From a virus: a stretch of DNA of 22,135 nt. Within the stretch, counting starts at the first letter, position 1. Each line of letters begins with the position of its first letter. Below are positions 6,502-16,383 of the stretch, piece after piece. Under the pieces are notes generated by a model that saw only the letters and a program-made list of their open reading frames with translations, ran no database searches and was not told the origin of the DNA. The stretch is from IMG/VR virus record IMGVR_UViG_3300049483_000024, positions 1 to 22,135 of that record; one strand, written 5' to 3'. Position numbers and translations under genes: made by a program.

Positions 6502-6529
6502 TTGACTTTCCTTTGGTAAATGTTAGAAT
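6502..6529 (+). promoter_or_regulatory. Sigma70-like promoter for the plus-strand HNH gene
   Basis: TTGACT at 6502-6507 and TAGAAT at 6524-6529 are each one base from consensus, and the spacer is 16 bases. Transcription would start near 6536, about 28 bases before the HNH start codon. The -35 element begins directly next to the coat GTG, and the coat ribosome site (minus strand, 6509-6513) lies inside this promoter's spacer. No experiment supports activity. Confidence 0.65.
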
Positions 6530-6563
6530 AGTTTGTAATCAAATTAATAGTTATGGAGTCAAA

Positions 6564-7184
6564 ATGAAAAGCTTTATTTTTATGGGTATCGAATATAAAT
6601 TTTACGATCATCTTTATGCGTGCTCCGCTTGCGGTAAAGCTATAAAGTTAAAAAAAATTACATTGCCTGATGGTCAAGAAGTTCCCGATTATTCTAATGT
6701 TAAACAAGCGGTTTATTGGCCTCGCCCAGACGGATATATTAACGTCGGAAGGAGAAGGTTATTACACCGTGTTGTTGCAACCTGCTGGATTGAAAACCCA
6801 GAAAACGCTAAACATGTTCATCATAAAAACGGTATTAAGTCAGACAATAGAGCGGATAACCTAGAATGGATAACGCCCAAAAAACATGCTGACAAACATC
6901 CTAAAACACCCTATATAAGAACACCTGAATCTATCGCTAAATTCGTTAAGTCTAAAACAGGAACTAAGGATAATGAGGCATCTCGTATAAAGAAAAAAGC
7001 GCGCCTTATAACTATTGTCCCTCGAACAACCTGTAAATATAAGGGTATTGAATACCCGTCTATAACAGAGGCCGCCCGTATCTTGAATATTAACAAATCA
7101 ACATTTAGACTTCGGTGTAACTCTAAAAACTTTCCAGATTACGAAATAGTTTCACTTTACTATTCCGGCACAACCAATCTTTAA
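6564..7184 (+). CDS. Free-standing HNH homing endonuclease with C-terminal NUMOD-like DNA-binding region
   Basis: A 206-residue protein. An N-terminal CxxC (Cys20, Cys23) precedes an HNH_3-like core: LHRVVATCWIENPE, His86-His87 in AKHVHHKNG, Asn99 in RADNLEWIT and His108. A basic linker follows, then about residues 156-192 with YKGIEYPSITEAARILNI and STFRLRC, a NUMOD1-type helix-turn-helix used by homing endonucleases to read DNA. I chose ATG 6564 because GGAG stands 5 bases before it; an earlier in-frame ATG at 6513 lies inside the promoter. The gene sits opposite to all virion genes between scaffold and coat, which are normally adjacent, so it is probably a mobile insertion. The target may be the uninterrupted scaffold-coat junction. 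Confidence 0.88.
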   Translation: MKSFIFMGIEYKFYDHLYACSACGKAIKLKKITLPDGQEVPDYSNVKQAVYWPRPDGYINVGRRRLLHRVVATCWIENPENAKHVHHKNGIKSDNRADNLEWITPKKHADKHPKTPYIRTPESIAKFVKSKTGTKDNEASRIKKKARLITIVPRTTCKYKGIEYPSITEAARILNINKSTFRLRCNSKNFPDYEIVSLYYSGTTNL

Positions 7185-7962: not shown

Positions 7963-7993
7963 ATTATATAGCACAGTATACAAATTAAAGCAA
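7963..7993 (-). promoter_or_regulatory. Candidate promoter for scaffold and coat genes
   Basis: On the minus strand a perfect TATAAT (7968-7963) is preceded by TTGCTT (7993-7988) at a 19-base spacing, longer than ideal. The predicted start near 7956 falls at the edge of the palindrome. The -35 lies at the end of the LamG-repeat gene. ATTGCTT (7956-7962) and AAGCAAT (7988-7994) are also inverted copies flanking the element. The evidence is motif-level only. Confidence 0.35.
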
Positions 7994-9967
7994 TAACAGA
8001 CGGGCGCTAATGTTGTACTTATGGATAAATTTATTATGTTCTTTGATTAACTCCTTTTCTCTTTGAATAATTAATAGATGTTCGTTGTATAAATCAAGCT
8101 GTCTATTGTTCATGGCATCTACAAGTTGCTGTAACTCATCAATTGCAGCGCTTTTGTAAACAATCGGCTTGTATTTGATGCTTAATAGCCGCTCATACTC
8201 GCTCTGCTCCTGAACTACTTCTTCTATTAGCTGGTTAATTTTCTTTTTTGCTATTCTCTTCTTTGGTCGCTTAACCTCATAAAGCCTGGGGTGTATGTTG
8301 TAAGCCCCGCCTGTAGCCGATGATGCCGGAGCAGGAAGTCCAGACGCATTAATGCTAATAACATCCGGTAAATCAGTTATTGATAATGAAACAGTTTCGC
8401 TTTGTGTTTCTAACGCTGAAATAACATCAGGTAAATCGGTTATTGATACATCGACGTTGCTTATTACAACATCTGTAATTGATACAACAATCGTGTCATT
8501 TGGCGCCGTTATAGCAGCATCTACAGAAGACAAGCCACTAGCGGTAACGGTAATGGTATCAGTTAAGTCCGTTATGGCTGCCGTTACTGTGCTGGTTTGC
8601 GCTTCACTAGCGGCTATCGTATCTCTGCTATCTGTAATCGTTACAGTTACAGAATCCCCAGCAGAAGAAATACTAACGGTAATTGTGTCGGCAAGGTCGG
8701 TAATTGACACGTCAACTGTAGCTAATCCACTGGCATTACCAGCAACAGTGTCTGCAATGTCAGTTATGGAAATTGTAGCTGTTGAGTTTTGCGTCTCTGT
8801 TATTGCAATCGTGTCATTTGGCGCTGTAATCGAAGCCGTTAACGTTGCTGCTCCTGATGCGTTAGCGGAAATCGTATCTACCACATCGGTTATTGCTACT
8901 GTTGCAGTATATGAGCCTGACGCTGTTGCAGCAATAGTGTCGTTTGGTGCAGTAATGGCTGGAGTAGCTGTCGCCGAGCCGCTTGCATTTATCGATATAG
9001 TATCCGCAAGATCGGTAATTGAGACTGTTAAAGATTCTCCAGAAGGTGTTGGTATAGAATATAAAACTAAACTTTTTATTGCATTAAATGCAAGCAGATA
9101 ATTAGAGCTAATTTTTATCTTTACATTATCGCTTAAAAGGCCCCGCCCAAAAGCCGCAAAATTTAGCTTTATATCAGCCGCTTTCCTTTCCCTGTTTAAC
9201 CATGTGTACCCGCCTCCCATTCTAAGCGGAAAATTCTCATCTGTTCCTAGTGTGACATCTGATGGGGTTATCGCTCCTGTTACGTCAATTCCATCAACGT
9301 ATACACTAAAACAGGATGAAGACAGGGCATTACCTGTAAATGTAACTAAAACTGTGTGCCATGTGGAATCTGATGGTATTACATTAGCTGTAGAAGCCGG
9401 CATCTGTAAATCAGTGCCAGAACTGTAGCATGACACACCTATAGACAAATCATTATTTATATAAACAACCCATCCACCATTTGGAACAGATACGCCATCA
9501 ACTTTTGCAAAAATTGACTCACCAAAGCCTGCTGCCGGAGTTGATTTTAGAGCAATATGAAACAGCGCCCATCCGGGTGCGTTTCTAAATAAATCTATTA
9601 CTTTTTTAGATGTAAAGTCTACATAATCACCAGATACTGGAGTACCAGTGCTTTCCCAAGCTTGCCCATGCGGGGTTAATGATGTTGTAAAGTTTACATA
9701 AGATGAATTTTTATCTGCATTTTTTGGATAAAATAATTCGGGATTTATTAATGATGATGCTCCATTTTTATTATTAGATTGTAAGGAGACATTGACAGAA
9801 GATTTAGGTAGGTATATTGCAGTATTAGAAGTAGGGGCAGTGCCAGCATTAAAAAGGCGATAAACAGCTATATCATCAACATACAAAGATGGGGAACTGG
9901 CTTTATCCGCTGTTTTGCGGCTTACCCATCTTTCACCAAGTTTGTTTTTCCAGCCTGATAAGGCCAT
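7985..9967 (-). CDS. Large structural protein: LamG-like domain, 21-residue tandem repeats, C-terminal coiled coil
   Basis: A 660-residue protein. Residues about 30-300 look like a concanavalin/LamG-type beta-sandwich: SPSLYVDDIAVYRLF near 25, APGWALFHIAL near 130, STWHTVLVTFTG near 201, CFSVYVDGIDV near 219. Residues 311-545 hold about eleven repeats of the form [SAT]-I-T-[DA]-x-x-D-T-I. Residues about 565-650 are basic then helical and heptad-like (KKINQLIEEVVQEQSEYERL). LamG-like folds often bind sugars or polymers, so a surface fibre or decoration with host- or matrix-binding function is plausible. It lies last in a five-gene block between portal and scaffold. It has no tail-spike or chaperone domain that I recognise, so the fibre role is inference. 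Confidence 0.7.
   Translation of the reverse strand: MALSGWKNKLGERWVSRKTADKASSPSLYVDDIAVYRLFNAGTAPTSNTAIYLPKSSVNVSLQSNNKNGASSLINPELFYPKNADKNSSYVNFTTSLTPHGQAWESTGTPVSGDYVDFTSKKVIDLFRNAPGWALFHIALKSTPAAGFGESIFAKVDGVSVPNGGWVVYINNDLSIGVSCYSSGTDLQMPASTANVIPSDSTWHTVLVTFTGNALSSSCFSVYVDGIDVTGAITPSDVTLGTDENFPLRMGGGYTWLNRERKAADIKLNFAAFGRGLLSDNVKIKISSNYLLAFNAIKSLVLYSIPTPSGESLTVSITDLADTISINASGSATATPAITAPNDTIAATASGSYTATVAITDVVDTISANASGAATLTASITAPNDTIAITETQNSTATISITDIADTVAGNASGLATVDVSITDLADTITVSISSAGDSVTVTITDSRDTIAASEAQTSTVTAAITDLTDTITVTASGLSSVDAAITAPNDTIVVSITDVVISNVDVSITDLPDVISALETQSETVSLSITDLPDVISINASGLPAPASSATGGAYNIHPRLYEVKRPKKRIAKKKINQLIEEVVQEQSEYERLLSIKYKPIVYKSAAIDELQQLVDAMNNRQLDLYNEHLLIIQREKELIKEHNKFIHKYNISARLLLL
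8333..9037 (-). repeat. About eleven 63-bp tandem coding repeats in the LamG protein
   Basis: The anchor residue before I-T falls at 316, 337, 358, 379, 400, 421, 443, 464, 485, 496, 508 and 529. The period is 21 residues, with one +1 shift and one unit split 11+12. Two unit types occur: ITD-xx-DTI with an ASG turn, and ITAPNDTI. DNA copies are diverged, so the array is old or under diversifying change, not a fresh slippage product. Confidence 0.85.
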
Positions 9968-14292: not shown

Positions 14293-16383
14293 TTATCTCA
14301 TCCAGCTTGACTTATTAGGTCTATGGGTTAATTTAGGCTCATATTTCAGTGTTACAACCTTGTTTGCTGCTGCGCGCCTTGCGCCTTCAAGAGCATACCG
14401 GCAATTTTTAACCAATATACCATTAGCAAAATATTCGTGGTGGTTTTCAACAGTTAGATTGTAAACGTCTCTTTTTGTCTCTTGCTCTAAATGCTTTTGC
14501 TTTGCAGTTGGCATGACAATACTTATCACGTCCGCCAATCGCCCTAGCCATAAACTCTTTTCCGCATATTTCACAAAGTTTCGAAATAGGGACATAGTTT
14601 TTATATGCGAGTGTACCAATTTTTTTATGGAACTCTTTGCCTTCATCGCTTGAGTGCCATTCTTTAGAGAGGTGTCTAACGCTATCCAACCATTTTCTCT
14701 GCTTATCTCGCCTGTAGTTGTTAAAGTGCTTATTGACATGGTATTTTGCGGTAATAAGCTCAAGATTGCTGATGTCATTATTTGCATTATTCCCGTCAAT
14801 ATGGTGGATATGATGCTTTTTGCCAGCCGGTATTTCTCCGTGTGTATGCTTCCAAACTTCACGGTGTAAAATTTTTGGACTTCCATTTGTCCTTGATAAT
14901 CTAAAATAATCCCTGTCAGATGATCTAGTGCTTTCAGGATACCTAGTGTAGGTTTCGCCATTAAACTCTTGCTTTTCTGTAACTGCCATTTCGTATACTC
15001 CAAGTCTATTAATAAATTATCATCATATCGTATAGTATTGGAATAAAAGAAATCTTTCTTGCTCTCAACCCATATTTTATGATCTGGCGTACACCATAAT
15101 CCGTCAATGTTTATTACTTCCTGATTGATTCCGGTAATGCCTGCATCAATAACGCGCCGGTATCCTGATCTTGTTAATACCTCGTCTCCTATCTGTACGT
15201 CCTTAATCTTTTTAAATCCATTTCGCATAGAAATCAAAGAGTTACCTTCTATGCAGGCATCTATGACGTGATTGTCTTTATCTTCAAGCAGTGGCAGTAT
15301 ATCACCCGTAAGCTTGTCTTCTTTATAGCTGTAGTATGTTAGTTCGTCAATTGTATGAACACATCTTGGGTGAACGATAATATCAAACGACTTAAGCCAC
15401 TCTATGCCATCCTCAATGCTTTTTGGCCCTTTCACTGCTGACCTTATCTTTGGGAAGCCATTCTTCTGCATGTGTGAAATGGTCTCAGGTCTTGCGCTAT
15501 CAGCTGTTATAGGCCATTTTTCTGCATCTGGAACGCTCATAAACAGCTCAGGAAGATTTACTATTTCGCATCCGACTCGGTAAGCTTCGTAATCAATATA
15601 TAAATTATTACCGTCAATACTACATCTAATAAGCACAGAAGGATCAACAGCAAAGCCCCAATCAGCGCCTAGTCGATATATTGTGCCATCTGGCCTAGTA
15701 AACTCTTCAACTCGCCAATTTCTGAAAACCCTAGCTTCACTATTTTGCCTATATTTACCAAGCCAGACATGATTATATTTATCAATATCTCTGCGCTTGT
15801 CATATTCCAGTTCTTGCTTAAGTTCATCAGGGAACCAAGGATTATCGCAATAATTCGCCTCTATAACTATGGCGTTTTCTGGTGGAGTGTCACCCCTAAG
15901 AAGCGCATCTATTGGATCAGTTGCCAAGTTAGGATTCCAGCTTGCCCATATCTCAGATCCCGGCTTTCTGAATGTTGGCCTGGCTATTGTCAATGACTTA
16001 TCGCTTATATTCTGCGCTTCCTCAAGCCATAATATGTCGAAGTCTTCAAGTGATTTAATACTGTCACTGGTATGTGACTGAAGGCCTGTAAAGATAGCAA
16101 GGCTACCGTTTCTAGCTTTGATGCAATCCTCTTGAACGATAAACATAGGCCCTACTTTCATCTGTTCTATTTTAAGTTCAAGCAAGTGCTTGACAGATTG
16201 CTTTAAGGATTTTTGTATCTCTCTAGCGCAACATATCCTTGTTGGCTTTTCAATCATCCTTTCTATAGCCAGCTCTGCAAAGAAATGAGATTTTCCGCTA
16301 CCCCTACCTCCATAAATCCCTTTATACCTTGATGGATATAACAGAGGCTTAAATACTCGCGGGGTGCGAATGTCAATGATCAT
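14293..16383 (-). CDS. Terminase large subunit (packaging ATPase/nuclease) containing an intein
   Basis: A 696-residue precursor; without the intein about 412 residues remain, short of P22's 499 but usual for the family. The ATPase domain has Walker A GGRGSGKS (25-32) and Walker B ILWLEE (117-122). The RNase H-like nuclease has Asp241 (GADWGF), Asp295 (ITADSA) and Asp375 (NHVIDA). The intein (377-660) is inserted two residues after Asp375, splitting the motif that continues as CRYALEGARRAA. Splicing should be needed for DNA cutting. The ATG overlaps the TerS stop (ATGA). The frame stays open for the whole length although 181 codons also encode the nested HNH gene. Confidence 0.92.
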   Translation of the reverse strand: MIIDIRTPRVFKPLLYPSRYKGIYGGRGSGKSHFFAELAIERMIEKPTRICCAREIQKSLKQSVKHLLELKIEQMKVGPMFIVQEDCIKARNGSLAIFTGLQSHTSDSIKSLEDFDILWLEEAQNISDKSLTIARPTFRKPGSEIWASWNPNLATDPIDALLRGDTPPENAIVIEANYCDNPWFPDELKQELEYDKRRDIDKYNHVWLGKYRQNSEARVFRNWRVEEFTRPDGTIYRLGADWGFAVDPSVLIRCSIDGNNLYIDYEAYRVGCEIVNLPELFMSVPDAEKWPITADSARPETISHMQKNGFPKIRSAVKGPKSIEDGIEWLKSFDIIVHPRCVHTIDELTYYSYKEDKLTGDILPLLEDKDNHVIDACIEGNSLISMRNGFKKIKDVQIGDEVLTRSGYRRVIDAGITGINQEVINIDGLWCTPDHKIWVESKKDFFYSNTIRYDDNLLIDLEYTKWQLQKSKSLMAKPTLGILKALDHLTGIILDYQGQMEVQKFYTVKFGSIHTEKYRLAKSIISTILTGIMQIMTSAILSLLPQNTMSISTLTTTGEISRENGWIALDTSLKNGTQAMKAKSSIKKLVHSHIKTMSLFRNFVKYAEKSLWLGRLADVISIVMPTAKQKHLEQETKRDVYNLTVENHHEYFANGILVKNCRYALEGARRAAANKVVTLKYEPKLTHRPNKSSWMR
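14447..14989 (-). CDS. HNH homing endonuclease nested out of frame inside the TerL intein
   Basis: A 180-residue protein encoded in a different frame (offset two bases) inside the intein segment. It has an AP2-less HNH_3-like layout: a beta-rich N-terminus (NGETYTRYPES, YFRLSRTNGSPKILH), REVWKHTHGEIPAGK, the core His62-His63 in HIHHIDGNN, Asn75 in ISNLELIT and His84. A C-terminal zinc-finger-like CEIC...CHANC (Cys139, 142, 158, 162) and a basic tail follow. The ATG at 14989 has GGAG 8 bases upstream, so it can be translated by itself. It ends at TGA 14447, over block F of the intein. It probably cuts intein-free terL genes and so spreads the intein. Confidence 0.85.
   Translation of the reverse strand: MAVTEKQEFNGETYTRYPESTRSSDRDYFRLSRTNGSPKILHREVWKHTHGEIPAGKKHHIHHIDGNNANNDISNLELITAKYHVNKHFNNYRRDKQRKWLDSVRHLSKEWHSSDEGKEFHKKIGTLAYKNYVPISKLCEICGKEFMARAIGGRDKYCHANCKAKAFRARDKKRRLQSNC
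14998..15001 (-). promoter_or_regulatory. Internal Shine-Dalgarno for the nested HNH gene
   Basis: GGAG on the minus strand, in the context TTGGAG, lies 8 bases before the nested ATG at 14989. It is inside the TerL coding sequence and decides that the nested HNH gene has its own start instead of relying on frameshifting. Confidence 0.6.

Follow-up and report, generated by a model that had tools for sequence, protein, structure and literature searches.

The stretch of DNA analysed here (the window) covers positions 1 to 22,135 of the IMG/VR virus record IMGVR_UViG_3300049483_000024, is 22,135 nucleotides (nt) long, and contains a structural block of a tailed phage with portal, major head, head-closure and terminase genes. 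The terminase gene terL carries an in-frame intein, and the DNA linking the two splicing halves of this intein also holds, on the same strand and in another reading frame, a complete HNH endonuclease gene. The features of the locus are as follows, where HMM denotes a hidden Markov model match, pLDDT the predicted local distance difference test score of an AlphaFold 2 (AF2) model, and a slash within a motif the point of insertion or splicing.

16383-14293, minus strand: terL, 696 codons in a single uninterrupted frame, composed of N-extein (residues 1-376), intein and C-extein
15255-14404, minus strand: intein, 284 amino acids (aa), equal to TerL residues 377-660, inserted at IDA/CRYA in the TerL nuclease domain
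14989-15255, minus strand: N-terminal splicing half of the intein, blocks A and B (HMM 5.4e-25; AF2 pLDDT 94-98 over residues 1-90)
15019-15017, minus strand: HNH-frame TAA, 27 nt ahead of the ATG
15001-14998, minus strand: GGAG, a Shine-Dalgarno-like site with 8 nt spacing before the HNH ATG
14989-14447, minus strand: HNH endonuclease gene, 180 codons plus stop, ATG start, -1 frame relative to terL
14404-14466, minus strand: C-terminal splicing half of the intein, blocks F and G, VYNLTVENHHEYFANGILVKN (HMM 4.3e-19; pLDDT about 97 over residues 261-284)
14447-14466, minus strand: doubly constrained stretch, where the HNH end (LQSNC-stop) overlaps the start of block F (VYNLTVE)

The terL product matches Terminase_3 (3e-30), Terminase_3C (7e-13) and TIGR01547 (1.8e-45), and the intein within it can be followed from end to end, from Cys1 through block A (CIEGNSLISMRNGFKKIKDVQIGDEVLT), block B (CTPDHK) and block F/G (VYNLTVENHHEYFANGILVKN) to the terminal Asn, after which Cys+1 follows. 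The catalytic set comprises C1, T56-x-x-H59, N284 and Cys+1, where C1, H59 and N284 are invariant across 58 inteins, and the NCBIfam profile intein_Cterm is matched with 2.8e-6. An empty site is also available for comparison: in Xanthomonas phage PBR31, whose TerL lacks the intein and is 71% identical, the protein reads through HVIDA-LRYA, the window TerL minus its intein reads HVIDA/CRYA, and the PBR31 protein aligns across the junction. In the AlphaFold model of the intein both halves form a HINT fold with pLDDT 94-98, and most of the linker lies at below 50 to 75; the nearest solved folds are the gp41-1 intein (3.4e-5) and DnaB inteins, with a profile match to 6qaz at 3.6e-20. Judged from sequence and model, the element is an intein with a confidently predicted HINT fold and a linker predicted to be unstructured, and it is predicted to splice. 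A stop between the halves, as in a split intein, is not present in the window, where the intein frame is open throughout.

The HNH gene overlaps terL over 543 nt, its final codons extending into the DNA of block F. The HNH protein matches HNH_3 (PF13392, 1.4e-12) and phrog_15471 (3.2e-21), holds an HNH core and a CxxC...CxxxC zinc finger, and is modelled by AlphaFold with a mean pLDDT of 95; H62, H63, N71, N75, H84 and the four Cys are invariant in 50 aligned HNH proteins. Its best matches, which are weak, are to I-HmuI (PDB 1u3e; Foldseek E 0.079, profile 1.1e-4). An earlier note on this DNA had described a TerL intein that harbours, out of frame, a whole HNH gene possessing its own ATG and a GGAG site 8 nt upstream; both open reading frames (ORFs), the intein blocks and the PF13392 match bear out the nesting, and the start signals are seen in the window sequence. 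The note had also allowed for a sequencing error that could create the second frame. The nested layout is not such an error, since an identical copy occurs in another metagenome (L003), a second locus (L004) is 91.5% identical over 6 kb with both frames kept, and dozens of distant homologues share the layout.

HNH profile searches of viral and genome contigs yielded 126 loci, which were pooled with earlier loci, and in 97 of them (66 clusters at 60% identity) the HNH gene is strictly nested in a longer frame on the same strand. Intein N and C blocks flank the HNH in one shared frame at all 97 nested loci, a count that leans on block profiles grown on these same loci, although the motifs themselves are plain (Cys ... 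HN/C). The HNH gene lies at -1 to the host frame in 94 of the 97 and at the other out-of-frame offset in three (L063, L081, L102), which on inspection are genuine TerL inteins. The arrangement usual for large inteins, with the endonuclease in frame between blocks B and F, was found in 0/97 nested loci, and in none of the loci does the C block lie in the HNH frame. The proposal that the splicing protein and the mobile part are separated by reading frame, unlike in inteins with a fused endonuclease, is upheld by these counts, and the guess that related cases may exist in other phage inteins proved right.

Regarding the hosts of the element, 90 N-terminal host parts were scanned, of which 55 match Terminase_3 and 53 Terminase_6N, with a few hosts left without identification, and most of the insertion sites that could be placed fall, to within a few residues, at one shared conserved motif of the terminase. 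Nested loci are present in Acinetobacter phage Highwayman, Tetrasphaera phage TJE1, Rhodobacteraceae phage LS06-2018-MD07 and a human faecal phage scaffold, and also, in prophage-like form, in bacterial and archaeal contigs assigned to Bacteroidota, Frankia, Patescibacteria, Nitrospirota, Thermoplasmatota and Nitrososphaerota; a search of plasmids gave no match. Because the records of Highwayman, TJE1 and LS06-2018-MD07 list terL alone, the endonuclease has been missed in their annotation.

The query of a second survey was the C-terminal intein/TerL junction alone, not the HNH, and its best 80 matches were considered. Among the 79 loci obtained, whose fractions describe the nested clade and not all TerL inteins (some contigs being shared with the first survey), 68 carry an out-of-frame HNH at the same offset, eight are mini-inteins without HNH (104-113 aa), one is possibly split and two are cut by contig ends. 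An in-frame HNH was seen in 0/79 among these best 80 matches, so that homologues with an HNH fused in frame, which had been foreseen as an objection, appeared in neither survey. The HNH is short or partial in five of the 68 (L149, L151, L154, L164, L168): in L149 and L164 a short zinc-finger fragment is left, still in the alternative frame, and L154 (2645-3271) has an HNH without catalytic core in the alternative frame, yet is open in both frames. The nested layout is the normal state of a large and widespread family of phage inteins.

Some of the nested loci have peculiarities of their own. The ORFs of L101, L027 and L124 show further intein or LAGLIDADG_3 matches beside the nested-HNH intein, and each of these genes seems to hold two intein types, while in L121 (1331-4732), a Clostridium contig, the nested-HNH intein is found in an ORF of 1134 aa without a terminase match.

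The chance of the open frame had been estimated in the earlier note at roughly 2 in 10,000, which is (61/64)^180. The rarity stands and the figure does not, as uniform base use is the wrong null; it was replaced by synonymous recoding of the same HNH protein. When the window HNH is recoded with phage codon usage, 5.2 stops are expected in the intein frame and the probability of its being open, P(open), equals 0.0015, and with the codon usage of the HNH gene itself P(open) = 0.019. Over the 97 nested loci the intein frame has 0 stops vs 443.8 expected, and at the cluster level (n = 66) 0 vs 322, where chance would leave 1.3 genes open; nesting is partly defined by openness, and the independent contrast is that with true free-standing relatives, which have 1-16 stops in the corresponding frame. 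The overlap constrains the HNH protein too, since Met plus a following A-codon spells TGA in the intein frame, and this pair occurs in 0/132 cases in nested genes vs 13/42 in free-standing ones.

The overlap-aware rate ratio, obtained on six independent close pairs, is 0.24 for HNH residue changes and 0.78 for linker residue changes. Between the window and L004, 77 of 89 changes in the upstream part of terL fall at third positions, and in the overlap 16 of 19 changes alter the intein-frame residue. The HNH frame is under purifying selection and the linker is near neutral apart from staying open, meaning that both frames are maintained, but differently, the HNH as a protein and the linker as an open frame. 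The suggested selection on the intein frame is borne out, and it bears in essence on stops and the splicing blocks, with linker residues changing almost freely; purifying selection on residues is seen in the HNH frame and not in the linker. Additionally, among loci picked by HNH similarity, the median identity between loci reaches 0.38 in the HNH and 0.37 in the splicing domain, as against 0.20 in the linker and 0.17 in the extein, and the partial correlation of HNH and Hint given the extein is 0.25, with 0/300 permutations as high. The element is patchy in its distribution, decoupled from the host gene and more conserved than it.

The usual -1 offset (94/97) probably has its explanation in stop density: in free-standing relatives the +1 frame is interrupted by 3.4 stops per 100 codons and the +2 frame by 10.7, that is, the +1 frame of these basic, hydrophilic HNH genes has about one third of the +2 stops. 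As for the start of the HNH, Shine-Dalgarno motifs stand ahead of it in 45 of 95 nested loci vs 8.0 expected, and in most loci a stop in the HNH frame precedes the start by a few to some tens of nt, often 3-12 nt. In the window this stop is the TAA 27 nt upstream of the ATG, which leaves little scope for a fusion by frameshifting. A canonical slippery heptamer is present in the entry stretch of 14 of 94 loci, vs about 5 on a crude uniform expectation, and none was found in the other 80 or in the entry stretch of the window. Internal initiation would be the simplest reading of how the HNH is translated.

Other arrangements of the same parts were also found. Split TerL inteins with an HNH between stop-separated halves are present in seven genome contigs from Clostridia, Patescibacteria and Spirochaetes (L103, L104, L106, L109, L113, L117, L118), and in Vibrio phage 1.245.O (NC_055736; L218, 2000-3389), where the HNH between the halves is unannotated and gp15, named 'hedgehog/hint domain protein', looks like the C-terminal half of TerL. 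In Brochothrix phage BL3 (NC_015254; L219, 1501-2607) the TerL intein is also split, and of the HNH a zinc-finger remnant is left, in another frame; the annotated terL of this phage stops early, and gp3, whose function is not annotated, looks like the intein C-half plus the TerL C-terminus. Several loci first typed as free-standing were really split inteins or frame-broken or truncated copies, as a block search without the openness requirement showed. Free HNH genes of the nested family adjoin an intein-less terL in BP10, FBPa53 and SN1. A path from a free gene beside terL to the nested state, and from there to a split intein or a mini-intein, would fit these sequences; the HNH tree (110 rows) is weakly resolved and settles neither the direction of the path nor the number of nesting origins. 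Brevundimonas phage Poludnitsa (L220, 2501-2893) has an unannotated HNH of the nested family between terL and portal.

In our opinion, this is most probably a mobile intein with its homing endonuclease encoded by a gene apart, placed out of frame in the linker DNA. From the two frames, the intein anatomy, the empty site, the selection pattern, the initiation signals and the recurrence, all of which are seen in the sequence, we infer splicing, HNH translation, target cutting and homing. Ribosomes in the terL frame would read straight through and give a precursor, from which the HINT domain, assembled from blocks A, B, F and G with the linker looped out, would excise itself and ligate TerL. Other ribosomes would initiate within the same message at the ATG at 14989 and produce a free HNH/zinc-finger enzyme of 180 aa, which could cut the intein-less terL of co-infecting phages near the IDA/RYA motif, and repair of the break would copy intein and endonuclease together. 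The HNH protein and both splicing halves would then be under selection, and the linker frame would need only to stay open.

Several alternatives have to be weighed against this. A -1 slip from the terL frame could join the N-terminal parts of TerL and the intein to the HNH, which would then be made as a fusion. The usual offset is indeed the direction of classical programmed frameshifting, and slippery heptamers are found more often than the crude expectation predicts, but an HNH-frame stop lies so close before the start in most loci that there is little room to shift, the heptamer is lacking in 80/94 loci and in the window entry stretch, Shine-Dalgarno motifs are enriched at the HNH starts, and three loci have the other offset; we regard such a fusion as very improbable. 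We give a similarly slim chance to the view that base composition produced the overlap and that the HNH is no more than a dead passenger or a fortuitous ORF: fossils and core deletions do occur (L149, L154, L164) and such genes have few stops in their +1 frame, but the catalytic HNH residues and zinc-finger Cys are invariant in 50 proteins, omega is about 0.24, and the window gene is a full-length ORF with a confident fold and a P(open) of 0.0015.

It is also improbable that the HNH serves DNA packaging and is merely stored within the intein, even though HNH proteins are common beside terminases, this one is located in terL and its relatives in BP10, FBPa53 and SN1 are free genes next to that gene. 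Against this, PBR31, with a complete genome and the TerL 71% identical, has neither a PF01844 nor a PF13392 HNH, mini-inteins without HNH exist, and the best structural and sequence match is a homing enzyme, I-HmuI. Group I introns are the usual carriers of I-HmuI-like HNH enzymes, which would speak for an RNA intron (group I or II) with an endonuclease ORF, removed before translation. I-HmuI itself (1u3e) is the HNH of a phage group I intron, carried by a ribozyme and not by an intein, and its similarity to the nested HNH is remote; as the window has no Rfam family match at gathering thresholds, and the intein blocks and catalytic residues are present in a frame that is open throughout, an intron is exceedingly improbable.

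The reading as a mobile intein with a separate, nested endonuclease gene has points against it as well. An obvious Shine-Dalgarno motif is absent in about half of the loci; Pfam Vint and Intein_splicing match the window intein below their own cut-offs; the rate ratios rest on six pairs; and the junction profile of the second survey was built from nested loci, so its best 80 matches lean to their clade.

In the usual description an intein is a single chain that includes its endonuclease. Dassa et al. (2009, NAR) reportedly found fractured genes in which split inteins have a free endonuclease between their halves, the title being said to report a new endonuclease family. The seven genome loci and Vibrio phage 1.245.O resemble these in having the endonuclease separate and between the halves; the window intein is unlike them, being one chain that the endonuclease overlaps out of frame. 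The intein of the cyanophage CL131 dCTP deaminase likewise combines a HINT splicing domain with an HNH_3-type nuclease within the intein, but as HintN plus HNH_3 in one polypeptide (PMC6293099), whereas in the window family the two are encoded as separate proteins in different frames of a shared segment. Mycobacteriophage TerL inteins have been reported as splicing-competent and with active endonucleases (PMC5050341); these are in the ATPase domain of TerL1/TerL6 types (PMC5050341), while the window intein interrupts a conserved DNHxxDAxRYA-like motif of the C-terminal nuclease domain.

The ShiLan domain of a mycobacteriophage DNA methylase is an insertion, not an intein, with a complete out-of-frame HNH (PMC11855218, 2025). 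It shares with the present family a host frame without stops, a hidden HNH with zinc fingers, and a patchy distribution suggesting homing (PMC11855218). Its authors reported no features of intein or intron splicing and no Shine-Dalgarno site, and proposed leaderless GTG initiation (PMC11855218); unlike it, the HNH of the window type is surrounded by a full intein, often has a Shine-Dalgarno site, and occurs in an essential terminase gene and in many phage groups. No paper on an out-of-frame endonuclease in a true intein was found in a search that did not include a 2025 preprint on actinobacteriophage inteins (doi 10.1101/2025.01.02.630785). The ShiLan paper (PMC11855218) cites this preprint, on non-canonical intein architecture, for overlapping frames in actinobacteriophages, and intein cases may be described there.

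By splitting splicing and mobility between reading frames, such an intein would let either of its two proteins change or degenerate at a smaller cost to the other. If the free linker frame acquired a stop codon, the halves would be separated and the HNH left whole, so nested inteins may yield split inteins. To hypothesize, nesting could be a stable, recurrent class of mobile intein and perhaps a natural source of split inteins with the endonuclease between the halves, which we put forward tentatively, at somewhat less than even expectation. The series of nested intein, nested intein with HNH fossil, mini-intein, split intein with HNH, and split intein with fossil (BL3) means that cultured phages can be used to test this origin of split inteins. 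The family further offers a strong natural example of overlapping genes on one strand, in which one frame is constrained as a protein and the other is mostly kept open.

Elsewhere in the window, an ATG-initiated ORF of 249 codons (8352-9101, plus strand) lies antisense to an ORF of 660 codons (7985-9967, minus strand), for which no PHROG match was obtained. A second HNH gene (6513-7184, plus strand, 223 aa) matches phrog_59 at 1.1e-23 and HNH_3 above the cut-off; it lies on the strand opposite to terL, between the major head gene and a scaffold-like gene.
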